From positions 1 through 32,422 of the forward strand of contig JAAEOP010000450.1 of the NCBI GenBank assembly GCA_024223125.1: DNA of 32,422 nucleotides, in the 5' to 3' direction. The notes under the pieces are model-generated. The model was not told the DNA's origin, ran no database searches, and saw only the letters and a program-made list of their open reading frames with translations. Of this stretch, positions 1 to 32,422 are shown piece after piece. The DNA comes from Chloroflexota bacterium (GTDB lineage Bacteria > Chloroflexota > Anaerolineae > Promineifilales > Promineifilaceae). The translations under genes and the position numbers were made by a program. How positions within the stretch are numbered: the first letter of the stretch is position 1; the number at the start of each line of letters is the position of its first letter.

Positions 1-2
1 AC

Positions 3-164
3 GAAGGCATCATCAGCGATGGACTTATGGATAGCTTTGCCCTGGCTGAATTTGGCGTCTACATCGAGGAAACATTCGACATTTACATCCCCGATGCCGA
101 TCTGACCGTTGCCAAAATGGATACTCTCAATCAGATGGTCGTCCGTGTCATGCGCAACCTCTAG
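3..164 (+). CDS. Acyl carrier protein, C-terminal part (5' end outside window)
   Basis: An open frame runs from the window edge to a TAG stop at 162-164 and encodes about 53 residues. The piece contains ISDGLMDSFALAEFGVYIEE followed by a FDIYIPDADLT segment. This matches helix II and III of phosphopantetheine-binding carrier proteins, with the DSF serine in the place of the DSL/DSM attachment serine. Carrier proteins of this kind hold acyl or aminoacyl groups as thioesters for a partner synthetase. The partner must lie upstream of the window, so whether it serves fatty acid synthesis, D-alanylation or a secondary pathway cannot be told. A strong terminator follows, so it is the last gene of its transcript. 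Confidence 0.75.
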   Translation, partial: EGIISDGLMDSFALAEFGVYIEETFDIYIPDADLTVAKMDTLNQMVVRVMRNL

Positions 165-218
165 ATCCTCCCCGCGACCAACCCCATTTACCTGCGTATA
201 GAGCTTCAGTAAAGTAGT

Positions 219-274: not shown

Positions 275-763
275 ATGCAAAAGAAAAACTCTGTCATCGG
301 CGGCGTCATACTCATAGGTGTCGGCGTTTTAATTTTACTGGGCCAGCTTATTCCAGGGCTGGCAGACCTATTCGATTTCAGCCGCTTGTGGCCTTTGATC
401 TTTGTCGCCATTGGCGGCCTTATGCTGTTAAGCGCGGTGGTTGGTTCTCCCGAATTGGCAATACCGGGCAGCGTCCTGACCGGCTTAGGATTGTTGTTGT
501 TTTACCAAAACACATCTGGCAATTGGAGTAGTTGGGCATATGCCTGGGCTTTGATTCCTGGTTTTGTAGGCATCGGGCAAGTCATAACTAGCAGCTTGGA
601 TAAAACCAAAGCAGATATGCGGTCTACAGGATTGCGGCTCATTTTAATCAGTGTGAGTCTGTTTGCTATTTTTGCTTTCTTCTTTAACTTTTCCTGGAAC
701 TATTGGCCGATACTATTGATTATTGGCGGGTTGTGGCTGTTGCTAAACGGCCGTAAACAATAA
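275..763 (+). CDS. LiaF/LiaI-type transmembrane domain protein (DUF5668-like)
   Basis: A 162-residue integral membrane protein with about five or six hydrophobic segments. It opens with a Gly-rich GGVILIGVGVLILLGQL helix and a LWPLIFVAIGGLMLL helix, and closes with YWPILLIIGGLWLLLNGRK. The W-P-L/I-L-I-x-I-G-G-L-x-L-L pattern appears twice and is typical of the LiaI/LiaF-like transmembrane region. LiaF-type proteins hold cell-envelope stress sensors in check; this one has only the membrane part and no LiaF C-terminal domain. The start is supported by a GAGGT Shine-Dalgarno just upstream. It stands next to pspC and pspA, which suggests a shared envelope-stress role by inference. Confidence 0.7.
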   Translation: MQKKNSVIGGVILIGVGVLILLGQLIPGLADLFDFSRLWPLIFVAIGGLMLLSAVVGSPELAIPGSVLTGLGLLLFYQNTSGNWSSWAYAWALIPGFVGIGQVITSSLDKTKADMRSTGLRLILISVSLFAIFAFFFNFSWNYWPILLIIGGLWLLLNGRKQ

Positions 764-1092: not shown

Positions 1093-1117
1093 GCGCCTTT
1101 TTTACCTCTTTTGGACG

Positions 1118-1157
1118 AAACGGCCGTAATCTGTACAGGTTACGGCCGTTTCTTTTT
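1118..1157 (+). terminator. Rho-independent terminator built from two ACGGCCGT palindromes
   Basis: A perfect 12-bp stem, AAACGGCCGTAA (1118-1129) with TTACGGCCGTTT (1140-1151), is followed by CTTTTT. The loop contains CTGTACAG, itself palindromic, so the stem can extend. Each arm contains one complete copy of the octamer that is iterated through the window. It ends the LiaF-like/pspC transcript, and its T tract reaches into the proposed -35 box of the pspA promoter. Confidence 0.85.
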
Positions 1158-1927: not shown

Positions 1928-3025
1928 ATGATGAATGTCGCTCTTGTACACGATTGGATGAACCAGATAGGCGGTGCAGAAGATGTGTTGGAAGCGCTGG
2001 TCAACCTGTATCCCTACGCCCCTGTTTTCACCTCCATGTATGCCCCCAACAAGATGCCCGCCCACTGGCAAAATTGGGACATCCGCACCACCTTTTTAGA
2101 TAAACTACCCCTCATCCACAAAAAACAACAGCTTTACTTTCCGCTTTATCCTCTCGCTTTTGAACAACATGATTTTCGCGGCTATGATCTGGTAATTAGC
2201 AACAAAAGCGGCTTCTGTCATGGCATTATCACCGACCCGGAGACAACGCACATTTGCTACTGCCTGACGCCAACGCGGTATGTGTGGCGTTACCATCAAT
2301 ATGCGGAGCAGGAAAATTTGGGCCGGATGGCGCGGGGCATGTTGCAGCCCTTTTTAGGTTGGCTGCGGGTGTGGGACCGGCTGGCGGCCGACAGAGTGGA
2401 TCATTTCATTGCCATCTCGCAGGAAGTACGTCGGCGAATCGGCAAGGTGTACCGGCGGGAGGCCACTATCATCTACCCGCCGGTGGATGTCAACCGTTTT
2501 GCGCCCGCCAATCAGGTGGATGATTATTTTTTGATTGTAGGACGATTGGTTCCTTACCGGCGTATTGATTTGCTGATTGAGTCCTTTAACAAAATGCAAC
2601 GGCCGTTACTCATTGCCGGTCATGGTCGAGATAGAGAACGGCTAGAAAGTCTGGCCGGACCAACCATTCAATTTTTAGGCTATGTGCCCGATGAGGATTT
2701 GCCCGATTTGTACGCCCGTTGCCGCGCCTTTATGTTCCCCGGTGAAGAGGATTTTGGCATTGCCCCCATTCAAGCGATGGCTGCCGGACGGCCGGTCATC
2801 GCTTATGCGGCCGGTGGCGCATTGGATACCGTCATCTCCGGACAGACAGGCATCCTTTTTAATGAGCAGACAGGTGTAGGTATTATGCAAGCCGTAGATG
2901 AGTTTGAGGAGATGAAAGTGAACACGGCTATTATCCGCCAACACGCCGAAAAGTTTGACATCGCTATCTTCCAAGAACAGATGACAAACTTCATCCACCA
3001 AAAAATGGACGAAGCATCCCCATGA
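1928..3025 (+). CDS. GT4-family (GT-B fold) glycosyltransferase
   Basis: A 365-residue GT-B glycosyltransferase, probably cytoplasmic and acting on lipid-linked polysaccharide intermediates. The N-terminal domain begins with VALVHDWMNQIGGAEDVLEA, including the GGAE acceptor-side glycine motif. The C-terminal domain has FLIVGRLVPYRRIDLLIESF and the donor-site stretch around GEEDFGIAPIQAMAAG, then RPVIAYAAGGALDTV. The closest recognisable group is the mannosyl/rhamnosyl-transferase type found in capsule clusters, although the sugar cannot be assigned. In the EX7E motif the first Glu is E274 but the second is Gln (Q282), an unusual substitution. The start is ATG 1928 or ATG 1931; neither has a Shine-Dalgarno. 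Its stop overlaps the next start by 4 nt (ATGA), so the two are translationally coupled. Confidence 0.88.
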   Translation: MMNVALVHDWMNQIGGAEDVLEALVNLYPYAPVFTSMYAPNKMPAHWQNWDIRTTFLDKLPLIHKKQQLYFPLYPLAFEQHDFRGYDLVISNKSGFCHGIITDPETTHICYCLTPTRYVWRYHQYAEQENLGRMARGMLQPFLGWLRVWDRLAADRVDHFIAISQEVRRRIGKVYRREATIIYPPVDVNRFAPANQVDDYFLIVGRLVPYRRIDLLIESFNKMQRPLLIAGHGRDRERLESLAGPTIQFLGYVPDEDLPDLYARCRAFMFPGEEDFGIAPIQAMAAGRPVIAYAAGGALDTVISGQTGILFNEQTGVGIMQAVDEFEEMKVNTAIIRQHAEKFDIAIFQEQMTNFIHQKMDEASP

Positions 3026-4206
3026 AAAAAATTGTCCTGGCTGTTTTCGCTCTCATCATTCTCATCTACCTGTTTCTTGGACCTATCCCCATTCCCATCA
3101 ACCTGGGGCGGATAGACTTCACCGCCTATTGGAGTACCGCCTATTTACTGGCTCGTTCTGAAAATTTCAGTGATTCCAATACCTTGCTGACAGTGGAACA
3201 AACATGGGCAATGTGGGACGGGGATTTCCCCATCAAGGCCTGGAATCCACCCTGGCTGCTACCACTGCTCCTGCCCTATACATTGGTTCCTTTTCAGCGA
3301 GCGGTCTGGCTCTGGTTCAACAGTAATATTATTCTGGTGTTTACCGCCTCGGTTATGGCCTGGATAAGTAGCGCCAATAAAGAATCGGTAAGCAAGCGGG
3401 CCTGGCTGGCGCCCCTCATCAGTTTTGTGTTTGCTCCGCTGCTGACCGGACTTTATATGGGGCAAGTTAATACCCTGGTCTATTTTGGATTGGCAGCCAT
3501 GTTGTATTTTGCCGACCGAAATCGGCTACTGCTATCAGGATCAGCTTTGACTTTGACGATAGTAAAACCACATCTAGTTTATGTGACAATACCAATACTC
3601 TTATTGAGTGCGGTCTACAAAAAAGAGTGGCGATTTGTGGCCGGGTTTTTGGGAACGCTGTTGGGATTAACGGCCGTAACCTTTGCTCTACGGCCGTCAT
3701 TCATCGGTGAATATATTGCTTCTTCTACTAGTAACAACTTGTTAAGCTGGCAGACGCCAACATTAGGCGGCATCTTAAATTTTCTGTTTGGCTGGGAAGA
3801 GGCTGTTTTGATGAGCTTACTCGTTTTGCCCCTGTCAATCATCTGGTGGTGGACCCAAAAAGACCGCCTGCTACTGACAGAATTAACCCACATCACTGTC
3901 TTTATTTCCATCATCACCGCTCCCTTTGGTTGGGGGTACGATGCCATCATTTTGATGATTCCCATTTTGCAGATTATCGTTTGGGTTTTTGAGGGACATT
4001 ACAGCAGAACGATGAACATTTTATTGATCGGCAGCCTGGTTTTGATTGATGTTAGCGCCATTTACCAACGTACTCGCATGAATAACGAAGTTTTCGCTTT
4101 TTGGCTACCTATAATCCTGGCTTTCCTCTATCTGCTTGCCAGAAGACAGAAAGGATTGTTTAGTCAATTGAATGTCTTAAATGAGCTTGAGAGATTAAGA
4201 GATTAA
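3022..4206 (+). CDS. GT87-type (DUF2029) polyprenyl-phosphate-dependent glycosyltransferase
   Basis: A 394-residue protein with about ten membrane helices. Near the N-terminus, after the first helix, the segment RIDFTAYWSTAYLLARSENF carries the Asp expected at the active site of GT-C enzymes that use polyprenyl-phosphate sugars. The WNPPWLLPLLLPYTLVPF segment is typical of the GT87/DUF2029 family. Such enzymes transfer mannose or similar sugars outside the membrane. It is coupled to the GT4 gene by a 4-nt ATGA overlap and precedes the chain-length genes, so it probably adds sugars to the same polymer or to a glycolipid. The 3' end and following gap contain a GAGATTA-type repeat. Confidence 0.78.
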   Translation: MKKIVLAVFALIILIYLFLGPIPIPINLGRIDFTAYWSTAYLLARSENFSDSNTLLTVEQTWAMWDGDFPIKAWNPPWLLPLLLPYTLVPFQRAVWLWFNSNIILVFTASVMAWISSANKESVSKRAWLAPLISFVFAPLLTGLYMGQVNTLVYFGLAAMLYFADRNRLLLSGSALTLTIVKPHLVYVTIPILLLSAVYKKEWRFVAGFLGTLLGLTAVTFALRPSFIGEYIASSTSNNLLSWQTPTLGGILNFLFGWEEAVLMSLLVLPLSIIWWWTQKDRLLLTELTHITVFISIITAPFGWGYDAIILMIPILQIIVWVFEGHYSRTMNILLIGSLVLIDVSAIYQRTRMNNEVFAFWLPIILAFLYLLARRQKGLFSQLNVLNELERLRD

Positions 4207-4231: not shown

Positions 4232-4660
4232 ATGCACCAAAACCTGGAACAAATTATTCACAAAGCAACAAGCGATTCGGCCGCGGTCTATGCGCCAAGC
4301 CCACCGTTAGAGATACAAAGCAATCAACTTTATGATGTGTGGACACACGGCCGTCAACACATTGACCCTATCCTGCCCGAAAGAGTCCAGTTATATTTGC
4401 TCCTGTTTCCCGTATTTTGGTTAGCCATCTTGCTCAATATTGGCCTAAATCGGGCAAAATCGGGACAATTGGTAAACTGGCATATCAACGAACTACCGGT
4501 CAACAAGCGATTAAACCGCTACCTGATCCGCGCCGAAGCGTGGCCGGCGCAAGATTTTGATAAACAAGAGGCGGGTTTATTTTTCCCAAGCCCCTCAAGT
4601 CCCCGGCACTTTGGAAGTGCCGGGGACTTTGGAAGTGCCGGGGACTTTGGAGCAGATTAA
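4232..4660 (+). CDS. Unknown single-helix membrane protein of the polysaccharide cluster
   Basis: A 142-residue protein I do not recognise. Residues 1-50 are polar, residues about 53-71 (QLYLLLFPVFWLAILLNIGL) form one membrane helix, and a basic segment with NKRLNRYLIRAEAW follows. The last part, about residues 122-140, is encoded by a short repeat and reads as two GDFGSA-like units, so the native C-terminus has probably been replaced or extended by repeat insertion. It has no Shine-Dalgarno. It sits 25 bp after the GT87 gene and 11 bp before a Wzz-type gene, so it is probably co-transcribed with them. No function is proposed. Confidence 0.5.
   Translation: MHQNLEQIIHKATSDSAAVYAPSPPLEIQSNQLYDVWTHGRQHIDPILPERVQLYLLLFPVFWLAILLNIGLNRAKSGQLVNWHINELPVNKRLNRYLIRAEAWPAQDFDKQEAGLFFPSPSSPRHFGSAGDFGSAGDFGAD
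4597..4648. repeat. 15-bp inverted repeat plus tandem 18-mers inside a 3' coding end
   Basis: AAGTCCCCGGCACTT (4597-4611) is a perfect inverted copy of AAGTGCCGGGGACTT (4615-4629), with a 3-nt loop. The right arm is part of an 18-bp unit GGAAGTGCCGGGGACTTT that is present twice in tandem (4613-4630 and 4631-4648). The unit length is a multiple of three, so the host frame is kept. Confidence 0.9.
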
Positions 4661-4671: not shown

Positions 4672-5355
4672 ATGGAACTACAATATTATTGGAAAATCGC
4701 AAAACGACGTTGGTGGCTGATTGTTATTCCAGCGGCCGTCGTTCTCATCCTCAGCCTCATAACCTACCGTCCGGCGCCGGCGGCCGGGTTCAATGTGGGC
4801 ATGAATTTCATCGTCGGTCAGAAACCGGCCGATCTATCCACAAATCCCGATGAAAATCTATATTACAACTGGCTGACTTCAGAATACATCGTCAATGGCC
4901 TGACAGATTGGGTAACTGGGGGGAAATTCAAAACGGCCGTGTCCGACCAACTATCCACAGAAGGATTAGATGTCCCCCCACACACTTTCAACATCGTGGC
5001 TGATAATGTACGCAGCAAATTACAGCTATCCATTCAACATGGGGATGCGGAAACCCTGGCCCAAATCATGAAGGCTGTCATTATTGTCCTGACCGAGCAA
5101 AACGGTGAAGCGCTGCCACAATTAGGAGAGGATACGGCCGTTATCATCCCCGTAGACCAACCCTTCGTTACCCCCATTCCCGGCAGCCTACGCAGCCAGC
5201 TAAACATTCCTCTCAGAATCGCCCTAGCCTTTATTGCCGGCATCGGGCTGGCCTTGCTTGTAGAATATCTTGACACTACAATCCACGACCGCGACGAAGT
5301 GGAACATCTAGGCTTGCGCCTTTTAGGAGAAATACCCAAAAGCCGCAAGTCGTAA
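4672..5355 (+). CDS. Wzz/YveK-type chain-length regulator (first copy)
   Basis: A 227-residue inner-membrane protein with the Wzz topology. A cytoplasmic N-terminus (ELQYYWKIAKRRWWLIV) leads into helix 1 at about residues 14-32. An extracytoplasmic domain of about 145 residues follows, then helix 2 near residues 185-203 (ALAFIAGIGLALLVEYLDTT), preceded by the Pro-rich PFVTPIPGSLRSQLNIPLR. The end DEVEHLGLRLLGEIPKS is the usual tail of YveK/CapA-type proteins, which work with a separate tyrosine kinase to set polymer length. The extracytoplasmic domain is short compared with Gram-negative Wzz. No Shine-Dalgarno is seen. A second Wzz-type gene follows 35 bp later. Confidence 0.82.
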   Translation: MELQYYWKIAKRRWWLIVIPAAVVLILSLITYRPAPAAGFNVGMNFIVGQKPADLSTNPDENLYYNWLTSEYIVNGLTDWVTGGKFKTAVSDQLSTEGLDVPPHTFNIVADNVRSKLQLSIQHGDAETLAQIMKAVIIVLTEQNGEALPQLGEDTAVIIPVDQPFVTPIPGSLRSQLNIPLRIALAFIAGIGLALLVEYLDTTIHDRDEVEHLGLRLLGEIPKSRKS

Positions 5356-6750: not shown

Positions 6751-6824
6751 CCAGTTTTCAGCAATCAGTTTTCAGTTAGTCATTCACTGCACACTGAAAA
6801 CTGTATACTGCACACTGAACTCAC
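6751..6824. repeat. CAGTTTTCAGT/ACTGAAAACTG repeat, copy 2, between convergent genes
   Basis: A perfect 11-bp inverted repeat, CAGTTTTCAGT (6766-6776) and ACTGAAAACTG (6793-6803), lies between the convergent kinase and proA genes, with more ACTG-type units on each side. Its position would allow it to act as a two-way transcription stop, but there is no clean T tract. The end runs into the last codons of proA. Confidence 0.7.
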
Positions 6825-8083
6825 GGCCGTACATGCCCATCCCCAATACAAACCCACTTATACGTCGTCAGCTCTGCCAGGCCCATGGGTCCCCGGGCGT
6901 GTAGCTTTTGGGTGCTGATGGCAACCTCGGCTCCCAGGCCGAATTGGCCGCCGTCGTTAAAGCGGGTGCTGGCGTTCACAAATACGGCCGCTGAGTTCAC
7001 CTCATTCACAAAACGAGTGGCGTTGCGCCAATTATTGGTTAAGATGCTGTCACTGTGATCCAGACTGTGGTCTTGAATGTGGGTAATTGCCTCATCGAGT
7101 TCGCAAATTTTTACGCCCAAAATGAGTCCCATCCATTCCGTATCAAAATCATCTGGCCCGGCGGGTACAACTGTGGCTCCATGTCCATTTTGGCTCAATA
7201 TTTCCAGGGCACGGCCGGCAGGACGCAATTCAACATTGTTTTGGGCCATGCGTTCAGCCATTTGGGGTAGAAATTGTTCGGCCACATGGGGATGTACCAA
7301 AACGGTATCGAGCGCATTGCAAACCGACGGCCGCTGCACTTTCCCGTTTTCCACAATATCCACTGCGGCCGCTAAATCGGCGCTCTCATCCACATACGCA
7401 TGGCAAATGCCAATACCGCCAGTGATGACGGGAATGGTGCTTTGTTCACGACATAATTTGTGCAGCCCATGTCCGCCGCGAGGAATCAGCACATCTACAT
7501 ACGCATCCAACCGCAAAAATTCAGCCACCAGGGCGCGGTCTGGATTATCAATGTACTGTACGGCCGCCGAAGGCAAACCCACCTTTTCCAACGCTGCCTG
7601 AATCACATTCACCAACGCCAAATTGCTGCGTAATGTCTCTTTACCGCCGCGCAAAATAGAAGCGTTGCCCGTTTTCAAACATAAAGTGGCAATATCAATG
7701 GTCACATTGGGGCGAGCTTCATAAATAACCCCCACCACGCCAAACGGAATACGACGACGGCTCAGGCGCAGCCCATTGGGCAAAACGCGAGCATCAAATT
7801 CGCCGCCCACCGGGTCTGTCAGCGCAGCCACGTTACGGGCATCCTCGGCTAAGGCGGCAATTCGTTTTTCGGTTAGTAACAAACGGTCTAACAGCGCCTC
7901 ACTCAATCCAGCGGCACGGCCGTATTCAATATCAATCCTATTTTGAGCCAGCACCACCTCTGCCTGTGCTTCTAATTCAGCCGCAATCGCCAGCAGCGCT
8001 TTGTTTTTGGCAGCGGCCGTTAAAGGGGCCAACTGACGACTGGCCGCTTTAGCAGCTTTCCCTATAGCAATTAAATTCGTCAT
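6821..8083 (-). CDS. proA: Gamma-glutamyl phosphate reductase
   Basis: A 420-residue enzyme of the aldehyde dehydrogenase superfamily. It reduces gamma-glutamyl phosphate to glutamate semialdehyde with NADPH, the second step of proline synthesis in the cytoplasm. The catalytic cysteine is C255 in [13 protein letters not shown], and the cofactor-binding region includes [15 protein letters not shown] and [13 protein letters not shown]. The C-terminal part has the family stretch [20 protein letters not shown]. Full family length (about 415-420). The ATG has an AGGAG Shine-Dalgarno (plus-strand CTCCT at 8091-8095). The usual partner proB is not adjacent. The last codons come from the edge of a short repeat. 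Confidence 0.96.
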
Positions 8084-8252: not shown

Positions 8253-9455
8253 TTAGATCGGCTTGGGCCAACGAATGAGCAACCCCATGATAACGAAGCC
8301 GACCAACAAGAGCAAAAGATAAAGTCCATTTTCCTGTAAAAATCGGATTGGTGCGGGTTGGGGTCGGTTAGCATCCAACCAATCTTGCTCTAATTGTGAC
8401 GGGGTTGTCTTGAGGGTGTGCTGCACGGCCGTGTTACAATCCTCCCCCGCTAAAAAGTCCACCAACAAACCGGGCAACGCATCATCCCCATAATTGGCCT
8501 GCACATAGCGCGTCAATGATTCACTTTGCACCCTGGCTAAAGCCGAATTGTTGGCCGGGAATTGGGCACATAAATCAGCCAGGGGGACAGTGTTGTTGTG
8601 GGTGACGGCCGTTTGCAGCATCTCCATTTCTGATGGAGAGAAAGCGCCATTTAATTGTTGGGCGATCCCTTCGCTAAACCAGGGCGGAATGGTGTGGGTT
8701 GTTTCTCCGGCCGTTTGATACAACCAAAAATAAAACAATTCTGGAGGCAGGCTGCGGGGTAAATCATTGACTGCTGTGCGGTCATTCACGGCCGTACTCA
8801 ACACCAAACCCAGCGCCGGGTCGGCACGGCCGTTTACCCAATCATGCCCATTCAAACGCAGCGCCGACCGTAAATCGGCTAAAGAGGGGTAAAGAACGAT
8901 GTCGGGGAAACGGTCAGTAGGCAATGGCAGCAGGTTAGCAATTTGTTGGCGTGTTGCCGCTACCGTTTGCTGCGCCACTAACCCAACTTCGGTCTCATCC
9001 CCGGGCCACCGGATGGCAGCCTCATCTTCCCGGACGAGTAATGTGTGCCAACCAAAACGGCCGTCTTGATAAGACAATGTTTGCGGCGGCGTTTCGATCT
9101 GATCGCCGGCCACCGTTTCTAACACCCACCAGTAGGTTACATCGGCAAAAGGGGGTAATTGGATAGCTTGGGCCGCAACTTTGTATTCGGCCGTCACTGT
9201 GCCATCAGCCATTTGTAAAAGATTAGCCGGCGCATAACTGGGGGCAGCCACATTCGGTTTTTGCAGGAAGATGGTTGCTGTTTCGATAGGTTCGTTGGTG
9301 ACGGCCGTTAAATCAAAATGTATTTCCCCCCCAAATGTGTAAATTGCCTCGGCCGTAAACTGTCCTCCTTGCCCATGAACCGACTGAAACCACAACAAAA
9401 TGCCCAAAAATATAAAAGCAAAAGGGAGTTGCCCAAAATTGTACCTGTTCAACAT
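8253..9455 (-). CDS. Exported peptidase-MA-like protein with a degenerate active site
   Basis: A 400-residue protein with an N-terminal signal sequence (hydrophobic residues 10-26, likely cleavage near VHG). It has a beta-rich domain to about residue 135, a helical peptidase-MA-like domain (about 155-345) and one C-terminal membrane helix (about 375-393) followed by RWPKPI. The strongest family cue is IPPWFSEGIAQQLNG (256-270), which in gluzincin peptidase-MA proteins follows the HEXXH helix. At the place where HEXXH is expected the sequence is PPELFYFWLYQTAG (237-250), with no histidine, so zinc catalysis is unlikely. It probably acts at the outer face of the membrane in binding rather than cleavage. 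Its ATG is 3 nt upstream (transcription-wise after) of the AEC transporter stop, so the two are co-transcribed. Confidence 0.6.
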   Translation of the reverse strand: MLNRYNFGQLPFAFIFLGILLWFQSVHGQGGQFTAEAIYTFGGEIHFDLTAVTNEPIETATIFLQKPNVAAPSYAPANLLQMADGTVTAEYKVAAQAIQLPPFADVTYWWVLETVAGDQIETPPQTLSYQDGRFGWHTLLVREDEAAIRWPGDETEVGLVAQQTVAATRQQIANLLPLPTDRFPDIVLYPSLADLRSALRLNGHDWVNGRADPALGLVLSTAVNDRTAVNDLPRSLPPELFYFWLYQTAGETTHTIPPWFSEGIAQQLNGAFSPSEMEMLQTAVTHNNTVPLADLCAQFPANNSALARVQSESLTRYVQANYGDDALPGLLVDFLAGEDCNTAVQHTLKTTPSQLEQDWLDANRPQPAPIRFLQENGLYLLLLLVGFVIMGLLIRWPKPI

Positions 9456-9458: not shown

Positions 9459-10388
9459 CTACAAACCTGCCAGGGTAATGACAGCGGCAATGGTAAAGGG
9501 GCTGAGTAGAGTAGAAATGACGACAATGCCGGTCACGGCCGATGGTTGCAAATTAAACTCTGTCGCCAGAATAATAGTGAACACGGCCGGGGGCATACTG
9601 GCTTCGATGATGGAAGTAGAACGGCTAAAACCGCTCAACCCCACCAGGCCGGCCACAAAAATACCTACCAACGGCCCTATTAACAAACGTAAGGAGATGG
9701 CGGAAATAGAGAGACGGCCGTCGGGACGACCCTGAACACGTGCAATTTGCATACCCAATACCAACAGCATCACGGGAATGGCGCCGGCGCCGGCAATCTC
9801 AATACCACGCAGAAGCGGCCCAGGCAGTTCAATTTGCCAGTTATACACAATGATCGCTAACACGGCCGCGTATACGGCCGGAAATGTGACCAACCGCCGC
9901 GCCGCCTGCCCCAATGAAAGATGTCCGGCAGAAGCGATAAAAATGCCCAATGTATACAAGATCATCGTGCTGGTTAAATAATAGACTACTGCTCGCGCCA
10001 GACCCGCTTCCCCGTACCGCAGCTGATTCAGGGTAAGGCCATAGTTCCCCCCATTCACAAACATAATGACGATGAGTAAAGCGGCCGTGTCTCGCCGCGA
10101 CAACCGCAGCAGCCGAGAAACAAGCAGCCCTATGCCACCCATAATCATAATATTCAACACCGCAAACAAAGCAATATCAGCCAATTCCTGGCCCGGCAAT
10201 TGTGAATTGACCAGGGAGGAAAAGACAAGGGCGGGGCTTAAACAATTCATAACAATGGTGGAAAGAGGCCGTATATCCAACCTTTTCCAACGGTGTAAAC
10301 CGTAGCCAAAAGCAGCTACAATAAAGATAGGCAATATGTTTTGGGTAAGGACGGTGATGATGTTGTTCAAATATTTGCTCCGAGCCAT
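9459..10388 (-). CDS. AEC-family transporter (auxin efflux carrier-like)
   Basis: A 309-residue membrane protein with about ten helices in two halves, the standard AEC layout. The N-terminal half begins ILPIFIVAAFGYGLHRWKRL and contains MNCLSPALVFSSLVNSQL. The central FVNGGNYGLTLNQLRYGEAG carries the conserved N-x-G-x-x-G-L region, and the second half has GAGAIPVMLLVLGMQIAR and EASMPPAVFTIILATEF. AEC proteins export or exchange small organic anions such as malonate, malate or amino acid derivatives; the substrate cannot be read from sequence. It precedes the peptidase-MA-like gene on the minus strand with a 3-nt gap. The 226-bp region upstream is shared with the divergent binding-protein gene. 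Confidence 0.85.
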   Translation of the reverse strand: MARSKYLNNIITVLTQNILPIFIVAAFGYGLHRWKRLDIRPLSTIVMNCLSPALVFSSLVNSQLPGQELADIALFAVLNIMIMGGIGLLVSRLLRLSRRDTAALLIVIMFVNGGNYGLTLNQLRYGEAGLARAVVYYLTSTMILYTLGIFIASAGHLSLGQAARRLVTFPAVYAAVLAIIVYNWQIELPGPLLRGIEIAGAGAIPVMLLVLGMQIARVQGRPDGRLSISAISLRLLIGPLVGIFVAGLVGLSGFSRSTSIIEASMPPAVFTIILATEFNLQPSAVTGIVVISTLLSPFTIAAVITLAGL

Positions 10389-24211: not shown

Positions 24212-24271
24212 GGAAAGGAGTATAGAGCATTACGGCCGTGACTCAAATATGTAAAAACATTTAGCCGTGTT

Positions 24272-24306: not shown

Positions 24307-25488
24307 CTAATCACCGCTATTCGGTGTGGGGGTCTGATAAGGAGCAGTGATAATTTCGGCAATGGTCAGTTCACCAGTGCGGATTTGTACCGGCTGGCGA
24401 TAATCCACCCCCTGCACCCGGACGTGGAGTGTGTAATTTCCCGGAACCATATCAGCAAAGACAAAGTTTTCGGCCACGGCCGCATCCGGGTTTATCATAT
24501 GCTGCGGATCATCCAGGTAGGTAAACGTACTGATGAATTGGGCTTCTTCGCCAGAGCTATCAATGAGCGTGACGCGGATACCTTGCCACGACCGTCCCTC
24601 CGGGTCCACCAATCTGCCCCCCAACACCCCGCTTTCCGCGACCGGCTGTAACCATAGCATTGGGTTGTGTGTGTTGGTAAAACTATTATTGGCTATGCGA
24701 ATTTCAAGATGCAGATGGGGTACAGTGGAAACCCCTTCTATCCCAATCTCAGCCACCGTTTCCCCCTGCTCCACTCGCTGTCCTGGTTCCACCTGAATAT
24801 TGCGAATATGGCCGTACAACACATAGACCGGTTCCCCTTGCCACAAATCATCTAGCTGCAACACAACCAGTTGACCGTACCAGTCACAGCGCCAACCATA
24901 CAACTCTTCGGCGTCGGATTGGGCAACGACGACTGTACCATCAGCCACAGCAAGCACGGCCGTCCCCAACAGTTCCGGCATATCAGCCCCATTGTGTAGT
25001 AGAAAACGACCGTCTCCATCCCAACCATACGGATAGTAAGCCTGGGCAATCGGTTTACGGCCGTCGGCAAGAGGATCTATGAAGGGAAAGTTGGGCGGAG
25101 AAACGGCCGCTTCGGCTCCGCTCAGTGCAGGTGCGGCTGGCGTCGGCCACGGCTGGGCAGCCAGATAGCCATGCAAATAATCTGGCTTCACTAGCGGTGG
25201 ATTGGGGCAAGTACGGTCAACTATTTCTGTGGTGGAGGATGGGTTGGGCGTAGGCGATGAGGTATCCGTTGGTTGAGGGGTTATGGAAGGAGGCGGAAGA
25301 TTGGTTGGTACAGGGGAGGATGTGTTGGTGGGCGTTGAGGTTGGGCTAGGCACGCCTGTCGCTGTGGCTGATACCGTCATGGTAGGGAAAGACGTTTGGG
25401 TGGACGGTACGGCCGTTGCCACTGCCCCACCACACCCCAACAGTAAGAAAAGGTACAGGTTGAAGTATACTATTCGGTAATAATTCAT
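24307..25488 (-). CDS. M23-family peptidase lipoprotein
   Basis: A 393-residue lipoprotein. A lipobox FLLLGC places the lipid-modified Cys at C19. A long Thr/Pro/Ser linker (about 25-90) extends the domain outward. The LytM-type M23 domain spans about 140-275: LLHNGADMPELLGTAVLAVA has the first His and Asp zinc ligands, LYGHIRNI the catalytic His, and VPHLHLEIR the HxH pair, so the active site is intact. Such enzymes cut peptidoglycan cross-links; here cleavage at the cell surface is likely. A C-terminal carboxypeptidase-regulatory-like beta domain (GVLGGRLVDPEGRSWQGIRV) follows. ATG 25488 is chosen over a TTG three codons upstream. Confidence 0.87.
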   Translation of the reverse strand: MNYYRIVYFNLYLFLLLGCGGAVATAVPSTQTSFPTMTVSATATGVPSPTSTPTNTSSPVPTNLPPPSITPQPTDTSSPTPNPSSTTEIVDRTCPNPPLVKPDYLHGYLAAQPWPTPAAPALSGAEAAVSPPNFPFIDPLADGRKPIAQAYYPYGWDGDGRFLLHNGADMPELLGTAVLAVADGTVVVAQSDAEELYGWRCDWYGQLVVLQLDDLWQGEPVYVLYGHIRNIQVEPGQRVEQGETVAEIGIEGVSTVPHLHLEIRIANNSFTNTHNPMLWLQPVAESGVLGGRLVDPEGRSWQGIRVTLIDSSGEEAQFISTFTYLDDPQHMINPDAAVAENFVFADMVPGNYTLHVRVQGVDYRQPVQIRTGELTIAEIITAPYQTPTPNSGD

Positions 25489-25650: not shown

Positions 25651-25674
25651 TTGATGACACGGGTCAGGTGCAAG

Positions 25675-28323
25675 ATGACAAATTATCAAACGGCCGAACA
25701 CAAACGATTAGCCGCTTCCGAAGCGCGAAAAGCTGACTGGAAAAACTGGGGGCCTTACGTCAGTGACCGTGCCTGGGGCACAGTGCGCGAAGATTACAGC
25801 GCCAGCGGTGAAGCGTGGGATTATTTCGATTTCTGGCAGGCACACCGCCGCGCTTACCGCTGGAACGAGGATGGCATTGGCGGCGTTTGCAACCGTCTTC
25901 AAAACATCTGTCTGGCGCTGGCTTTTTGGAATGAACAAGATCCCATCTTAAAGGAACGATTTTTTGGCTTGACGGGTTCGCAAGGGAATCATGGGGAGGA
26001 TGTGAAGGAGTATTACTATTACCTGGACAGCGCCCCGACCCACTCTTACATGAAGATGCTATACAAATATCCCCAAGTACGTTTTCCGTATGAGCAATTG
26101 GTAGAAGAAAACGGCCGTCGCCGCAAAGACCAGCCCGAATTTGAACTGATTGATGTGCTGGGAGATGTGTTCCGTGACGGCCGTTACTTCGACATCACCA
26201 TTGAATACGCTAAAGCGGATGAAGAAGATATATTGTGCCGGGTGACGGCCGTCAATCGCGGCCCCGACCCTGCCCCACTGCACATTCTGCCCCATATCTG
26301 GTTTCGCAATGATTGGTCGTGGGGATATGAACGCGAAAAACCGGAACTGCGCCAGATCGACGACGGCGCTATTGTCAGCCACCATCGCCATTTGGGGGAA
26401 CGGTGGTGGTATGTGGCCGACACGCCCAACCTGTACTTCACAGAAAATGAAAGCAACATGGAGTCGCTGTTTGGCGTACCCAACCCATCCCCGTATGTGA
26501 AGGATGGCATCCATGAAGCGGTGGTCAACGGCCGTGCCCATCAAACCAATTCCCAAAAAACAGGCAGCAAAGCGGCCGCCCATTACCAATTCAATATCCC
26601 GCCCGGAGAAAGCGTTGAAGTCCACATCCGTTTTACGACAGTGGCGCAGCGTGAGCCTTTTGCTGATTTTACGGCCGTGTTCGAGCAGCGAATCGAGGAG
26701 GCCAACGCTTTTTATGATACCCTCGCCCCAACCCATTTCAGTGAAGATGAACGGCGCGTACAACGGCAAGCATTCGCCGGGTTGATGTGGAGCAAGCAGT
26801 TTTACCATTACGCTGTTGATTTGTGGTTGCAGGGAGACCCAGCCAGTCTATCACCGCCGGAACAAAGACAACACGGCCGTAACCGCGACTGGACCCATCT
26901 CTACAACCTGGATGTACTTTCCATGCCCGACAAATGGGAATATCCCTGGTTTGCTGCCTGGGATTTAGCCTTCCACACCCTGCCCATCGCCATGATTGAT
27001 CCAGAGTGGGCCAAACGCCAACTCATCTTGCTGCTGCGCGAATGGTATATGCATCCCAACGGCCAGATTCCGGCCTACGAATGGGCTTTTGGCGATGTCA
27101 ATCCACCCGTTCACGCCTGGGCCTGTTACCGCGTCTACCAAATTACCCGTGACCAAACCGGCCAGGCTGACCTGGAATTTCTGGAGAAAGTATTCCACAA
27201 ACTGCTACTCAACTTTACCTGGTGGGTCAACCGTAAAGATGCAGATGGCAACAATGTGTTTCAGGGTGGCTTTTTGGGGCTAGACAATATCGGCGTCTTT
27301 GACCGCAGCCAACCGCTGCCGGAAGGCTTGCATTTGGATCAGGCAGACGGCACAGCCTGGATGGGGATGTACTGCCTGAACATGCTGGCCATAGCTTTGG
27401 AACTGGCCCGCCACAAACCAGCCTATGAAGATGTAGCCACCAAATTCTTTGAGCATTTTATCTTTATTGCCAATGCCATCAATGCACCCTGTACGGAAGG
27501 GGGTTTGTGGGACGATGAAGATGGTTTTTATTATGACATGATTCATCACCGCGACGGCCGTCACACCCCGTTACGTCTGCGTTCCTTTGTGGGGTTGATT
27601 CCGCTGTTTGCCGTCCACACATTTGACCCCCAAATCATGACCCAACTGCCTCGCTTTGCCCGCCGCACCCGCTGGTTTATGCAGTACCGGCCGCAGTTAA
27701 TGACTCAGTTAAACTTCATGCAGAAACGGGGGCAAAACGGCCGTCTCATGCTCTCCCTCCTCAGTCCCGACAAATTACAGCGCATCAGCCAACGGATGTT
27801 TGATCCAGCGCAGTTTTTATCCAATTATGGGTTGCGCTCTTTGAGTCAGGAGTATGCAGAACGGCCGTACCAAATTCAAGAAAGCGGCCAAACATATACG
27901 GTTGATTACCAACCGGCCGAATCCAACACCTACCTGTTTGGCGGCAACTCCAACTGGCGCGGCCCTATCTGGCTGCCGCTGAACTACCTGATGGTGGAAT
28001 CACTGCAAAAGTATCACCATTATTTTGGAGATGATTTCCAGGTGGAATACCCGGCCCACTCCGGCCAGATGATGACTTTAGGCGCGGCCGCACAAAACAT
28101 CTCCCAAAGATTATGTGATATTTTTTTGCGGAGAGAGGGGGGGAAACGGCCGTTTAACGGCGGCGTAGACCTCTTCCAACAAGACCCCCATTGGCGCGAC
28201 CACATCCTCTTTTACGAATACTTCCACGGTGACAACGGGGCCGGCATCGGCGCCAGTCATCAGACGGGGTGGACGGCCGTGGTTGCCCACTTGTTGTTAA
28301 ATAGTGGAGAGGAACCTACATAA
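25675..28323 (+). CDS. Large GH63/MGH1-like glycoside hydrolase
   Basis: An 882-residue soluble protein without a signal peptide, of the glucosidase group related to GH63 and to the MGH1-like domain. The N-terminal half is beta-rich (AWGTVREDYSASGEAWDYFD and EYYYYLDSAPTHSYMKMLYK). The C-terminal half is an (alpha/alpha) barrel with YPWFAAWDLAFHTLPIAMID, LGLDNIGVFDRSQPLPEG and GGNSNWRGPIWLPLNYLMVE. The Asp of AAWDLAFH and acidic residues near the C-terminal GGVDLFQQDPHWRDH are candidate catalytic positions. Family members act on alpha-linked glucosides or glucosylglycerate-type osmolytes; the substrate here is not known. ATG 25675 is taken as start; TTG 25651 and ATG 25654 upstream lie in repeat-like sequence and are less likely. 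Confidence 0.85.
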   Translation: MTNYQTAEHKRLAASEARKADWKNWGPYVSDRAWGTVREDYSASGEAWDYFDFWQAHRRAYRWNEDGIGGVCNRLQNICLALAFWNEQDPILKERFFGLTGSQGNHGEDVKEYYYYLDSAPTHSYMKMLYKYPQVRFPYEQLVEENGRRRKDQPEFELIDVLGDVFRDGRYFDITIEYAKADEEDILCRVTAVNRGPDPAPLHILPHIWFRNDWSWGYEREKPELRQIDDGAIVSHHRHLGERWWYVADTPNLYFTENESNMESLFGVPNPSPYVKDGIHEAVVNGRAHQTNSQKTGSKAAAHYQFNIPPGESVEVHIRFTTVAQREPFADFTAVFEQRIEEANAFYDTLAPTHFSEDERRVQRQAFAGLMWSKQFYHYAVDLWLQGDPASLSPPEQRQHGRNRDWTHLYNLDVLSMPDKWEYPWFAAWDLAFHTLPIAMIDPEWAKRQLILLLREWYMHPNGQIPAYEWAFGDVNPPVHAWACYRVYQITRDQTGQADLEFLEKVFHKLLLNFTWWVNRKDADGNNVFQGGFLGLDNIGVFDRSQPLPEGLHLDQADGTAWMGMYCLNMLAIALELARHKPAYEDVATKFFEHFIFIANAINAPCTEGGLWDDEDGFYYDMIHHRDGRHTPLRLRSFVGLIPLFAVHTFDPQIMTQLPRFARRTRWFMQYRPQLMTQLNFMQKRGQNGRLMLSLLSPDKLQRISQRMFDPAQFLSNYGLRSLSQEYAERPYQIQESGQTYTVDYQPAESNTYLFGGNSNWRGPIWLPLNYLMVESLQKYHHYFGDDFQVEYPAHSGQMMTLGAAAQNISQRLCDIFLRREGGKRPFNGGVDLFQQDPHWRDHILFYEYFHGDNGAGIGASHQTGWTAVVAHLLLNSGEEPT

Positions 28324-28707: not shown

Positions 28708-31700
28708 TTGAGCGTTGCTTCCATCAGGCCAACGGACAGTTATTATGGGAACCGTTTCCACATCCCCAAGACCAAAATGAAGACGCGGGTCTTCAGAGGC
28801 AAGATAGCTGCTGCCGGTATGCCATTCACGCATGATTTGCCGCCCATCGGGCAAGGTGAGCATAACGGCCGTGCCCGGATAAAACCCATCAAAGCCAATT
28901 TCCAGCCAGTTACCCGTTTCGCTGCCGCCGTCGTTACGCAGAATAACGGCCGTTTGCCCAATCTGGTTAATCGCTACATCCAGGTCGCCGTCATTGTCAA
29001 AATCAGCCACCGCGCTGCCGCGTGACAGCAGTGTACCAACCTCTTTCAAGCCGACCAACTGCGTCCATTCCCGATATTCGCCAGGATGTCCCTCGGCCAG
29101 CCGATTACCATACAGCCGAACCAATTCAGGGTCGGTTTCCCAATTGCTGACAGGAACACGGCCGTTAACTGTCAACAAATCCAAATCCGTGTCATGGTCA
29201 AAATCTGCCCACGCCGTCCCCCAGCCAGTCATATTATTACCCAGGCCACGCATCCCGATGCGGTAGGTGCTGTAGCGGAAATTGATCGAGTTGTTAGCGG
29301 CCGTTTCATTTCGGTACATCGCATTTAATTCGGCCTCCCAATTGGTAACAAAGAGGTCAAACTGGCCGTCATTATCATAATCGCCGCCCGTGACGCCCAT
29401 GCCGCTGCCAGTATCCCCCACTTCCGCTTCCTGCGTTTTTTCCACAAAGCGAAAGCCGAGATTTTCGGGATCGTTGGGCAGCAGTTCATACAAATAGAGT
29501 CGATTGGCTTGCCCGTCATTGGCAATGTACAAATCCAAATCGCCGTCATTATCTACATCGCTAAAAATGGCGCCCAACGCTCGCTCTTCACGTACAAGGC
29601 CAGCCAGTTCTGTTACTTCCCGGAATGTGCCGTCTCCATTATTCATATACAAATGATCGGGCAGACCAAAATAATCCTGCGGAAACGCGCCGGAAGGACG
29701 GGGAACGGGATTGTCGAGGTCAATGAAACTGCCCACAAAGAGATCAGGCCAGCCGTCTAAGTTTAAGTCAGCTACAACGGCCGCGCTGTTCCATTCCGGT
29801 GTGTCAATGCCCGCAGCGGCGCCCCCTTCGCTAAACGTACCATCTCCATTGTTCCACAATAATTTGTTGGGGACATCGGCCGTGATGTGGATGTCTGTCC
29901 AACCATCCCCGTTAAAATCGGCGGCAACACAGCCGTTACCGCGTAATGCCAGGTTGCTGTTGGATTGGCTGCTGACGTTTTGAAAACGGCCGTTATCATT
30001 CCGAAACAATCCATTGCGGGGCAAGCCGCCATTGTTTTGCCAATAATCAACTTCTTCTTCCGCGTAGCTGTTGATCAGATAGAGATCGAGCCAGCCGTCA
30101 TTGTCGTAATCGAGCCAGCAAAGGCCGCCGCCCATCATCGCTGCCGGGTCTTCATAAAAGGCGTTGGCAAATGCGCCATGCCGGAAGTCGAGTCCAACCT
30201 CTGCGGTGACATTGGCGAACTGCCAGCCAAATGGAGAGGCTGGGTCATCCGGGGTTTCCGTCTGTGAATTGGCAGGAGGTGCATCTCCCCTTTCCAGAGC
30301 ACGGGCCACCTGTTCTAGATCGGGTAATGGGTCAAGCGGTAGGTTGCTGGGAACGGCCGCTGGTACAAAGGCGCTCAAATCTACGGCCGCCGGGTCGGTG
30401 AGCGCATGCAAAAAGGCAACTAAATCGGCTACATCCTGTTCGTTGAGGGGAAGACCATTTTGCAACGGGGGTGCGGCCGAGTGACCTTGTGTTTCGGGAT
30501 TAAACGGCCGTACACTGCTGTAGTAAGAAGGGGGCAAATGGGCGCTGGGATCATAGTTGGCGGCGCTTTCCCATATATTGGCATGATGGCCGATGACAGC
30601 TTCCAGCGTGGCATAAGCGCCGGTGTGAAAATAAGGAGCGGTGAGGGCAACATTCCGCAAGCTAGGGGTGCGAAAGGCGTATTGATCCCGACGGTCGAAG
30701 CTGACGAGACTGCGCCCCCAGTCTTCGCGGCCGTTTTCGCCAAACCCCTTCCCTGGCCCTAACTGCGGCGCGAGCAAATTATGGTAATCCAAATCGGTAA
30801 ACAGGTCGCCGTCGTGACATTGAACGCAGTTGACCTGTAGATTTAACTCCCCATAAAAGAGGAGCGCGCCCCGTTTTTGCTGCTCGTTGAGCGCATCCTC
30901 ATCTCCATTCAAAAAATCATCCCAGGGCGAATTTGTAAAGATAAAACGACGCTCAAATGCGCCAATAGCAGTGGCAACGTGAACGGCCGTTATTTTGTCT
31001 GTGCCAAAAAGTTGCGTAAATCGAGTTTGGTAATCTGGAATCGCCGACAATCGCGTAATTAACACATTCCGAATCTCCTGCGGCGCCAAATCACCCAACG
31101 TCGCTCCCGCCATTTCGTGCATACTGGTGATGGGGAATAACGCCTGCGCCGCCAATGCGTCGCTCATTTCGAAGCTGTTGACCATTGCTTCCTGCGTGGA
31201 AACATCTTCCCCCAACGCATAGCTTTCCACTCGCCCATCCCAAAACTGCATGGGAAGCAAGGCGGCATTTAAGACGGTAGGGCTGTTGCGGGGCACAAAT
31301 TGGCCCATAAATGGGTTGACGACGGTGACATTTCCCGTTGTGGGATCAAGCGTTCCCACTTGCTGACGGGGCATACTTGCATCTGGTCCCAACGTCACCT
31401 GGGTCACAAAATCACGCGCCGGCCCAAGTTCTGCGCCACCTGTGCCAATGGGTAACACACGCGCATCTGCCATTGCCAATGATGGATGATGGCAGGTGGC
31501 GCAGGAGATATTAAGATCGCCGGACAAGATTGGGTCAAAGAACAAATCTTGTCCTAATTTTGCCATTGGCGTGTCTCCTTCAAGCAAATCAAGGCCTGGG
31601 TTTGGGGTGAGATTGTGGCGTTGGATAATGGTCGCTAATGCCTCATCCATATCTGCAATTTCATGGTAGGTTGGCTCATTGATGCCGAGTGTAGGGATTG

Positions 31701-32422
31701 TTGGCGAAATGGCCGTTTCTTCATCGGCGGGGCCAAAAGTGATGTGGAGGATACGGCCGTTGAACACCTCCGTAATGTAAAAACTCCCATCCGGAATAGG
31801 CAGCGCCGACCCTGGAAAATTCAACTCTGTGACCACAGGCTCCAATGTGCCGTCTGCATTCAAGCGGCTGAGTACGCCTGTATTTTGCTGATATCCCATG
31901 CCGGAAAAGCAGGAAGCGTCTGGCGTGAAAGTGGCAAATTCCAGCACCCAAATCACACCCTTCCCATCCTGTATTACATCAATCGGCATGTTCAAATTGT
32001 CAACGACAGTACGCTGTGTTCGCGCTTCGCTGATGGCAACCAGTTCCCCTCCCCCAAGCGGGTACGGGCAGCCGCCAAACAAGGTGACATAATATTCCGC
32101 CTCGACACGAGTAATGCCCGTTGGCACGGGGTCAATCGTCAGTTTTTCATTGTTTGGATTGGTCAACTCATCAAAGCGATGGAAAAAACGGGTCTTCCCC
32201 TGCGGCGTTTCTTTGGCCACCCCATTTGCGGTGGCATCGCTGACAACTGGCACGCCATCGATGTCAAATGTGAGGTCGAACGGGTTGCCGATTTTGACAT
32301 TGTTTAATGGTTCCATGGCTACGCCAAGCTGCTCAGGCATAAATGGCTCGGCTGGCAATGATAAGGTTTCTCCAGGCGTCAATGGCAGCGTCCACAAATG
32401 GCCGGCCCCAAAATTCCCCAGA
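28654..32422 (-). CDS. Giant exported fusion: beta-propeller, di-heme peroxidase, FG-GAP repeats, ASPIC/UnbV (5' end outside window)
   Basis: The minus-strand frame is open from the window edge to TAA at 28654-28656, more than 1250 residues, and the N-terminus is not in the window. From the N-terminal side: a ScyD/NHL-like propeller part (GVIWVLEFATFTPDASCFSG, GSFYITEVFNGRILHI; about 32400-31700). Then a MauG/cytochrome c peroxidase domain with two heme sites, CATCH (31489-31503) and CVQCH (30814-30828), and peroxidase motifs RNSPTVLNAALLPMQFWDGR and FRTPSLRNVALTAPYFHTGA. Then FG-GAP/VCBS repeats with calcium loops (WLDYDNDGWLDLYLIN, DVDNDGDLDLYIAND). Last, an ASPIC/UnbV domain (TLPDGRQIMREWHTGSSYLA) at 28910-28660. 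It should act outside the cytoplasm in oxidation or electron transfer. The upstream signal peptide cannot be checked. Confidence 0.9.
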   Translation of the reverse strand, partial: LGNFGAGHLWTLPLTPGETLSLPAEPFMPEQLGVAMEPLNNVKIGNPFDLTFDIDGVPVVSDATANGVAKETPQGKTRFFHRFDELTNPNNEKLTIDPVPTGITRVEAEYYVTLFGGCPYPLGGGELVAISEARTQRTVVDNLNMPIDVIQDGKGVIWVLEFATFTPDASCFSGMGYQQNTGVLSRLNADGTLEPVVTELNFPGSALPIPDGSFYITEVFNGRILHITFGPADEETAISPTIPTLGINEPTYHEIADMDEALATIIQRHNLTPNPGLDLLEGDTPMAKLGQDLFFDPILSGDLNISCATCHHPSLAMADARVLPIGTGGAELGPARDFVTQVTLGPDASMPRQQVGTLDPTTGNVTVVNPFMGQFVPRNSPTVLNAALLPMQFWDGRVESYALGEDVSTQEAMVNSFEMSDALAAQALFPITSMHEMAGATLGDLAPQEIRNVLITRLSAIPDYQTRFTQLFGTDKITAVHVATAIGAFERRFIFTNSPWDDFLNGDEDALNEQQKRGALLFYGELNLQVNCVQCHDGDLFTDLDYHNLLAPQLGPGKGFGENGREDWGRSLVSFDRRDQYAFRTPSLRNVALTAPYFHTGAYATLEAVIGHHANIWESAANYDPSAHLPPSYYSSVRPFNPETQGHSAAPPLQNGLPLNEQDVADLVAFLHALTDPAAVDLSAFVPAAVPSNLPLDPLPDLEQVARALERGDAPPANSQTETPDDPASPFGWQFANVTAEVGLDFRHGAFANAFYEDPAAMMGGGLCWLDYDNDGWLDLYLINSYAEEEVDYWQNNGGLPRNGLFRNDNGRFQNVSSQSNSNLALRGNGCVAADFNGDGWTDIHITADVPNKLLWNNGDGTFSEGGAAAGIDTPEWNSAAVVADLNLDGWPDLFVGSFIDLDNPVPRPSGAFPQDYFGLPDHLYMNNGDGTFREVTELAGLVREERALGAIFSDVDNDGDLDLYIANDGQANRLYLYELLPNDPENLGFRFVEKTQEAEVGDTGSGMGVTGGDYDNDGQFDLFVTNWEAELNAMYRNETAANNSINFRYSTYRIGMRGLGNNMTGWGTAWADFDHDTDLDLLTVNGRVPVSNWETDPELVRLYGNRLAEGHPGEYREWTQLVGLKEVGTLLSRGSAVADFDNDGDLDVAINQIGQTAVILRNDGGSETGNWLEIGFDGFYPGTAVMLTLPDGRQIMREWHTGSSYLASEDPRLHFGLGDVETVPIITVRWPDGSNAQLDDIAANQQIDLIPENR

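Follow-up and report, generated by a model that had tools for sequence, protein, structure and literature searches.

A highly iterated palindrome with a CGGCCG core in most members of one Chloroflexota family, and a candidate methyltransferase that accompanies it

An iterated octamer in a 32-kb window

The stretch of DNA analysed here, "the window" below, is the 32,422-bp contig JAAEOP010000450.1 of a Chloroflexota bacterium (50.5% GC). It is studded with the palindromic octamer ACGGCCGT, which an initial annotation had likened to HIP1, the highly iterated palindrome (HIP) of cyanobacteria. There are 60 exact copies, one per 540 bp, where about 0.5 would be expected, so the annotation's claim of some 60 copies, far above chance, is sound. 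The sites, and the two open reading frames (ORFs) used below for comparison with relatives, lie as follows (the palindromic sites are listed without a strand).

747..754: ACGGCCGT site 1, exact match
1120..1127: ACGGCCGT site 2, left arm of a terminator-like hairpin
1142..1149: ACGGCCGT site 3, right arm of the hairpin at 1117..1152
1117..1152, + strand: hairpin formed by ACGGCCGT sites 2 and 3, then a T-run (-27.8 kcal/mol, z -6.1)
2599..2606; 3670..3677; 3690..3697; 4347..4354; 4933..4940: ACGGCCGT sites 4-8, exact match
5134..5141; 6823..6830; 7916..7923; 8425..8432; 8605..8612: ACGGCCGT sites 9-13, exact match
8788..8795; 8826..8833; 9057..9064; 9301..9308; 9714..9721: ACGGCCGT sites 14-18, exact match
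10397..10404; 10475..10482; 11161..11168; 11877..11884; 12137..12144: ACGGCCGT sites 19-23, exact match
14199..14206; 15093..15100; 15361..15368; 15920..15927; 16133..16140: ACGGCCGT sites 24-28, exact match
16471..16478; 16836..16843; 17149..17156; 17926..17933; 18696..18703: ACGGCCGT sites 29-33, exact match
19051..19058; 19256..19263; 21117..21124; 21846..21853; 22704..22711: ACGGCCGT sites 34-38, exact match
24232..24239; 24956..24963; 25057..25064; 25409..25416; 26111..26118: ACGGCCGT sites 39-43, exact match
26177..26184; 26245..26252; 26528..26535; 26671..26678; 26873..26880: ACGGCCGT sites 44-48, exact match
27554..27561; 27737..27744; 27861..27868; 28146..28153; 28273..28280: ACGGCCGT sites 49-53, exact match
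28865..28872; 28946..28953; 29158..29165; 29986..29993: ACGGCCGT sites 54-57, exact match
30504..30511; 30983..30990; 31753..31760: ACGGCCGT sites 58-60, exact match
25651..28323, + strand: 890-amino-acid ORF with 11 ACGGCCGT sites, first ortholog conservation test
6821..8083, - strand: ORF that we take to encode ProA, used for a tree and a second conservation test

Dinucleotide-preserving shuffles of the window (n = 100) contained a mean of 0.48 copies of ACGGCCGT and at most 3, and the second most frequent palindromic octamer of the window, GCGGCCGC, has 7 copies. The inner hexamer CGGCCG occurs 145 times, 12.9 times its first-order expectation, and the window holds both a strong octamer and an excess of CGGCCG with other flanks. 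Markov models of orders 0 to 6 give 0.51, 0.50, 1.1, 3.8, 14.2, 37.4 and 51.0 expected copies of ACGGCCGT; a background of order 0-4 does not predict the 60 observed, and the expectations at orders 5-6 approach 60 because those models have learned the sub-words of ACGGCCGT itself. The placement of the sites also agrees with the annotation, which had them spread over genes, all codon phases and intergenic DNA: 52 of the 60 lie wholly within ORFs of at least 150 amino acids (86.7% of the window), in codon phases 24/20/8, and 8 lie at least partly outside them. The hairpin at 1117-1152, with the octamer in both arms as annotated, is real. Forms with one changed end base are indeed common, with 30 copies of ACGGCCGC/GCGGCCGT, 15 of ACGGCCGA/TCGGCCGT and 7 of ACGGCCGG/CCGGCCGT, and one variant changed inside the word, ACGACCGT, is also raised in the window (5 copies, 0.6 expected).

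Distribution, dialects and upkeep of the word in relatives

The closest relatives of the 890-amino-acid protein belong to two Chloroflexi metagenome-assembled genomes (MAGs), Dive96_bin1.73 (76%) and J033 (70%). These carry 8,038 copies of ACGGCCGT in 4.8 Mb and 5,641 in 4.9 Mb, respectively; the control, the reversed word TGCCGGCA of the same base composition, occurs 149 and 201 times. Within the family to which the relatives belong (genomes bear our own G numbers, loci L numbers), 27 of 52 genomes have ACGGCCGT at about 990-2100 per Mb, with a maximum of 15,176 in 7.5 Mb, and the reversed word at only 7-66 per Mb. Among 199 genomes sampled evenly from the class, all 8 with more than 100 copies per Mb fall in this one family; the highest values outside it in that sample are 95 per Mb in G042 (reversed word 56), 79 in G098 and 74 in G101. 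The family is probably Promineifilaceae: one of its proteins has two homologues, 61% identical, that bear the name Candidatus Leptofilum, which the NCBI taxonomy places within Promineifilaceae. In a midpoint-rooted ProA tree, which holds 30 of the 34 genomes with a match (G156, G221, G227 and G228 were left out; 18 genomes are matchless), the window clusters with G203 and G205-G207, all of which are ACGGCCGT genomes. Thus the count in relatives that the annotation had proposed finds the enrichment genome-wide: most members of one Chloroflexota family have ACGGCCGT as a highly iterated palindrome throughout the genome.

Some other members use other words built on the same core. G209 and G099 use TCGGCCGA (observed/expected 53 and 62) and G185 uses GCGGCCGC (71), all in fetched pieces, and six genomes (G156 and G240-G244) have bare CGGCCG with little flank preference at 3.3-5.3 per kb, among which G240 shows a half-site preference for A. 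The word of G220 is TGCCGGCA, with 3,665 copies in 4.0 Mb and 29 in 27 kb (loci L163, L199 and L294), a usage that surfaced through the reversed-word control; G221 has 886 copies in 4.7 Mb. The remaining 14 family genomes, many of them GC-rich and some sampled by few kb, have no dominant octamer. G185 and G220 lie in the ProA tree within a supported group of mostly ACGGCCGT genomes, and at one ProA site G185 carries GCGGCCGC where the ACGGCCGT genomes (A.T genomes below) carry ACGGCCGT. The family thus has an alternate HIP that consists of a CGGCCG core with a lineage-specific outer base pair.

For the comparisons below we grouped 31 genomes as a CGGCCG-core octamer class: 28 with ACGGCCGT at 430 per Mb or more, of which G212 is the weakest (437 per Mb) and G227 is classed from its count alone (its piece read N), and 3 with dominant TCGGCCGA or GCGGCCGC, classed from 40 kb pieces. 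The bare-core class includes G240 (514 per Mb ACGGCCGT) and G156 (421 per Mb), placed there for their flanks, and G220 with its TGCCGGCA is kept out of the octamer class. Several of the "low" genomes are sampled at less than 8 kb, and the piece of G234 read N.

The dialect-like word variants among relatives, and the view that drive by uptake makes short words more frequent (PMC1939737, from the portion available), would suit a DNA-uptake sequence raised by biased uptake and recombination, as in Neisseria and Pasteurellaceae (the DUS and USS words), and the word shares with these its shortness, its possible spread by drive and its dialects. We consider this explanation quite improbable: in the same portion of PMC1939737 the known uptake words are non-palindromic and exceed expectation in non-coding DNA, whereas ACGGCCGT is a perfect palindrome and is denser in ORFs than outside them (1.79 against 1.22 per kb).

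The word is kept between relatives far beyond amino-acid constraint, as an ortholog test of the kind proposed in the annotation shows. Of 334 ordered comparisons in the 890-amino-acid gene (11 sequences, the window and 10 of 20 aligned relatives, with covering amino acids that all agree), 320 retain ACGGCCGT, whereas other 8-mers are retained at a rate of 31% and those matched in GC and CpG at 34%; in ProA (20 sequences, covering amino acids identical) the figures are 446 of 525 against 22% and 25%. Nucleotide alignments of 14 chosen close pairs keep 436 of 499 sites, against 36%, and all aligned pairs of ACGGCCGT genomes keep 1830 of 2874, against 15-16%; control palindromes are kept at 2 of 41 and 0 of 16 sites. 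CGGCCG itself is kept between bare-core genomes (176 of 289, against 18%) and mildly so within a group of GC-rich genomes described below (28 of 82, against 22%). These comparisons are not independent of each other. In 24 relatives one-off variants are raised only at the end positions 1 and 8 (1.6- to 5.3-fold, against 0.4- to 1.04-fold inside), and deviations mostly at the end bases are a mark of HIPs. With abundance across genomes, presence in coding and non-coding DNA and all phases, and conservation beyond amino acids, the label "HIP1-like highly iterated palindrome" is apt. An artefact of composition or codon usage, for which one might cite the 37-51 copies from window-trained Markov models of orders 5-6, is vanishingly improbable: orders 0-2 give 0.5-1.1 copies, the reversed word is about 10-200 times rarer than ACGGCCGT across the 28 ACGGCCGT genomes, and the control palindromes are seldom kept.

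The positions that proteins allow are nearly all filled. In 129,521 amino acids from 24 of the 28 A.T genomes (G212, G224, G227 and G235 omitted), ACG GCC GTx encodes 364 of 382 T-A-V tripeptides and ACGGCCGT is used for 250 of 277 [DHNY]-G-R, where codon usage alone would give 14% and 5%; occupancy in the third frame is lower (79 of 122). The peptides themselves are enriched over amino-acid independence, TAV 6.5-fold, [DHNY]GR 3.5-fold and the third-frame peptide 1.5-fold. The window alone uses ACGGCCGT for 24 of 25 TAV and 20 of 27 [DHNY]GR. The favored peptide follows the dialect: S-A-[DE] is enriched 4.2-fold in the two TCGGCCGA genomes and A-A-A 5.6-fold in G185. No TAV excess is present in the controls, namely the 12 "low" family members, other bacteria and cyanobacteria (0.8-fold in each), and in that "low" group 10 of 17 TAV sites still use ACGGCCGT. 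A short DNA word is thereby shown to push amino-acid sequence several-fold off expectation.

Strong conservation of a palindromic site across whole genomes is also what one would see if ACGGCCGT were bound by an abundant dimeric protein (a nucleoid, segregation or replication factor), with selection keeping the sites and the word following changes in the protein. Selection for a binding site is the main rival to the methylation-based reading set out below, and we judge it unlikely. Spacing of ACGGCCGT is random (coefficient of variation 1.03, variance/mean per kb 1.01, 21 ACGGCCGT genomes and the window pooled), and so lends nothing to the chromosome-organisation role that the annotation had suggested; the near-saturation of the two best frames, with TAV at 6.5-fold, resembles the outcome of a drive more than that of a fixed number of sites; and the word tracks a methyltransferase.

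A candidate methyltransferase and how the word might be maintained

Several enzyme families were tried as the enzyme of the word and rejected. The 5-methylcytosine family PF00145 is found in 24 of 52 genomes and is missing from many octamer genomes, and the set common to G241, G242, G156 and G072 was dropped for its look, which we take to be Dcm-like. PF01555 gives weak or partial matches only (best E 9.5e-10) in G207, G235, G226, G002, G212, G224 and G241-G243 and none in G244. PF02086 (presumably Dam-like) is in 42 of 52 genomes, including some without an octamer, in several subfamilies, and is not specific; Vsr is in just 8 of 52; and PF02384, in 7 of 12 genomes tried, does not track the word.

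Weak, order-swapped PF01555 matches in genomes that lack ordinary ones led to a candidate of about 660 amino acids, which carries DPMMGGGTT close to its N-terminus and TDPPYF/Y close to its C-terminus, with a Cys-rich part in between. We class it as a permuted amino-DNA-methyltransferase. NCBIfam NF042963 matches it far below cut-off, and its structure model is confident (predicted local distance difference test, pLDDT, 85), with matches confined to the methyltransferase core. By a family-wide profile search in which a strong match is one with E <1e-90, this putative methyltransferase is present in 40 of 52 genomes, in 29 of the 31 CGGCCG-core octamer genomes and in 0 of the 6 bare-core genomes. 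No strong match was found in G215, G220, G221 and G237, all without a CGGCCG-core octamer. A Fisher test of the octamer against the bare-core class gives 1e-5, uncorrected for kinship. By this correlation the outer base pair is shown to go with the permuted amino-DNA-methyltransferase.

Across 20 enzyme neighbourhoods there is no family-wide conserved partner gene, and the commonest neighbouring family is found in 6; the enzyme is therefore probably a domesticated, solo methyltransferase. The gene that follows it is common to G223, G185, G228 and G209 and is NurA by Pfam in the scanned G185 copy. NotI cuts GCGGCCGC, and EagI cuts CGGCCG. A NotI-family nuclease gene (PF12183) lies directly upstream of the enzyme in G185 (E 5.5e-11), where the genomic word is the NotI site itself, and in G216 (E 8.9e-53). 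With a profile of two sequences, 2 of 20 neighbourhoods show a NotI-like gene next to the enzyme and the other 18 show none. The G185 enzyme is sister to two enzymes of ACGGCCGT genomes (branch 0.66). The annotation had guessed at a CGGCCG or GGCC methylase, and that guess gains correlational support, and no support beyond correlation, from an enzyme that tracks the octamers and is linked to NotI in two genomes.

The NotI-family neighbours in G185 and G216 also invite a restriction-driven explanation, in which a NotI- or EagI-like nuclease cuts unprotected CGGCCG variants and only the form protected by the methyltransferase stays. We regard this as improbable, since it would account for the choice of flank and not for the excess of sites, and since CGGCCG with other flanks is undepleted (422 of 1213 cores in 466 kb of the 24 A.T genomes, where about 235 would be expected for all cores). 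The NotI-like gene is, moreover, confined to the two neighbourhoods, and contigs from a virus collection can be dense in ACGGCCGT. Among listed IMG/VR contigs with paired ACGGCCGT sites, density reaches 4.2 per kb, a figure biased upward by choice on those pairs; the density in some such contigs argues that the word is not avoided in them. Four of them (L425, L455, L413 and L505) have ACGGCCGT at 2.7-3.7 per kb and are perhaps partly host or prophage DNA, and L505 has a tail tape-measure gene (phrog_991). Relatives of the enzyme are found at 33 viral loci, those matched over most of the enzyme's length being 25-33% identical; the 8 of these loci listed show no word enrichment.

The reading that we prefer, to which we give about an even chance, joins these observations: the word would be the site of a solo methyltransferase and would be kept up by a methylation-coupled repair bias. 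A resident NotI-type methyltransferase, in most cases solo, would recognise the ACGGCCGT palindrome. Each time mutation turned a near-miss into the exact word, the new strand would be methylated and would then serve as template for mismatch repair or, following recombination, for repair of the heteroduplex; with the methylated new strand as template, words would be gained faster than they are lost, until nearly every position tolerated by the protein is occupied. The bare CGGCCG of some relatives may reflect the same process with another, six-base enzyme. A published repair model for cyanobacteria requires GmeC, and hence G/C beside the methylated base (PMC4390886, cited throughout from the sections available). 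CGGCCG already contains GC, and the A..T and T..A outer pairs therefore argue that methyltransferase specificity, rather than a GmeC nickase, would be the chooser. A bolder form of this reading, which we put forward only tentatively, treats the solo NotI-type methyltransferase as a genome-writing drive: a change in its outer-base specificity would rewrite genomes among ACGGCCGT, TCGGCCGA and GCGGCCGC, and in cyanobacteria the same process, run by another enzyme, would have produced HIP1. If so, an eight-base specificity would be imposed on the chromosome and on its proteins (TAV, [DHNY]GR, SA[DE] or AAA, by dialect).

A number of findings weigh against the methylation-based reading. Octamer genomes G138 and G235 lack the enzyme, and it is present in 11 genomes that have no octamer on this core: G214, the GC-rich G072, G040, G119 and G230-G234, and G238 and G239. 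The GC-rich enzyme-bearing group has no dominant octamer (by rough counts, in which pieces may overlap), and the ProA tree places G238 among octamer genomes. The 40 strong matches include 10 incomplete ones, some of them at the ends of contigs, and the copy in G099 is split over two frames. Against all other genomes, the Fisher test for the octamer class gives only 0.0015, again uncorrected for kinship; few independent gains or losses underlie the association; and the family genomes are largely MAGs of unstated completeness. No candidate enzyme was found for the bare-core genomes, of which G244 has no match to PF00145, PF01555, PF02086 or PF02384. Finally, CGGCCG has a central GC, and the GmeC model, as given in the sections of PMC4390886, does not predict A..T or T..A flanks. 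A rival to this reading is that the methyltransferase link is a phylogenetic coincidence, one old gene gain in a clade that also evolved the octamer; octamer and bare-core genomes do lie largely in separate parts of the ProA tree, and the 11 genomes with the gene and no octamer, G238 among them, fit as well. This is a serious possibility, yet still an unlikely one, given that G215 and G220 lie among octamer genomes in the tree and lack both octamer and gene, that G221 and G237 (outside the tree) also lack both, and that the adjacency of NotI points to the same sequence.

Relation to known systems, and minor observations

HIP1 was described in 1995 and still lacks an agreed cause; the pattern in the present family is much like it, although phylum, word and candidate DNA-marking enzyme all differ. 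Leaving one group aside, most cyanobacteria carry HIP1, GCGATCGC, at 300-2700 copies per Mb (PMC4390886). Both words are palindromic octamers built around a hexamer, both deviate at the end bases and both are linked to methyltransferases, in the present family to a candidate one (for the HIP1 side, PMC4390886); they also share the occupancy and peptide signature: measured alike on 22 cyanobacterial loci, HIP1 fills 165 of 200 A-I-A (4.3-fold) and 123 of 175 [CGRS]-D-R (3.0-fold). Occupancy is higher in the present family, 95/90% against 82/70%. The present word is not HIP1 proper, being ACGGCCGT rather than GCGATCGC, with inner CGGCCG rather than CGATCG, and its nearest relatives are Chloroflexi MAGs in another phylum; the general features of a HIP, abundance and spread, are there. 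The candidate enzyme is the permuted amino-methyltransferase of about 660 amino acids rather than the DmtC/DmtA of PMC4390886. Single cyanobacteria have alternate HIPs (GGCGCC, GCsGC and rCCGGy, with TCGATCGA as a HIP1 derivative; PMC4390886), and these resemble the present case in that the word is replaced between relatives, with a candidate enzyme. In the sections of that paper they are described as sporadic, whereas the present core, combined with several outer pairs, is found across much of a family. The likeness to restriction-modification systems of the NotI/EagI type (PF12183) lies in the shared core and in the NotI-family gene beside the methyltransferase in two genomes; it ends with the 18 of 20 neighbourhoods in which no nuclease is seen beside the enzyme and with sites that are hugely over-represented.

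The literature searched, judged from listings, shows no report of such a word in Chloroflexota. The text of PMC4390886 (Elhai 2015) contains neither "Chloroflex" nor CGGCCG, the available part of PMC12772301 has no relevant motif, and the sole paper found with ACGGCCGT as a word concerns, from its listing, DNA encryption. As an independent series in another phylum, with outer-pair switches, losses and a candidate enzyme, the HIP-type words of this Chloroflexota family turn the methylation hypothesis into a comparative test.

Some smaller observations concern methyltransferase genes elsewhere in the family. A third NotI-like ORF lies at L149 (G208:C427, about 14.8-15.7 kb) beside an ordinary 356-amino-acid PF01555 methyltransferase, and the pair is possibly a second NotI-type system of another make. 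At L091/L233 of G072, a methyltransferase that we take to be Dcm-like adjoins a Vsr gene, and its homologues in G241 and G242 have an N-terminal extension that looks helix-turn-helix-like by eye. Loci of G072 also show AATTAGGA and related 8-mers at 58-66 times expectation, probably a local repeat array.

The window itself holds further features. The ORF at 28654-32397 (1247 amino acids) has, by eye, what we take to be cytochrome-peroxidase-like CxxCH parts and FG-GAP/ASPIC-type repeats. Two 46-nt copies, 87% alike, lie at 8187-8232 and 22835-22880; they have hairpin-like halves (GATTTGCAAAATCG in one) and are possibly a small dispersed repeat. A 31-nt repeat of ACTGCACACTG-type units, at 6059-6089 and 6786-6816, flanks the ORF at 6102-6749.

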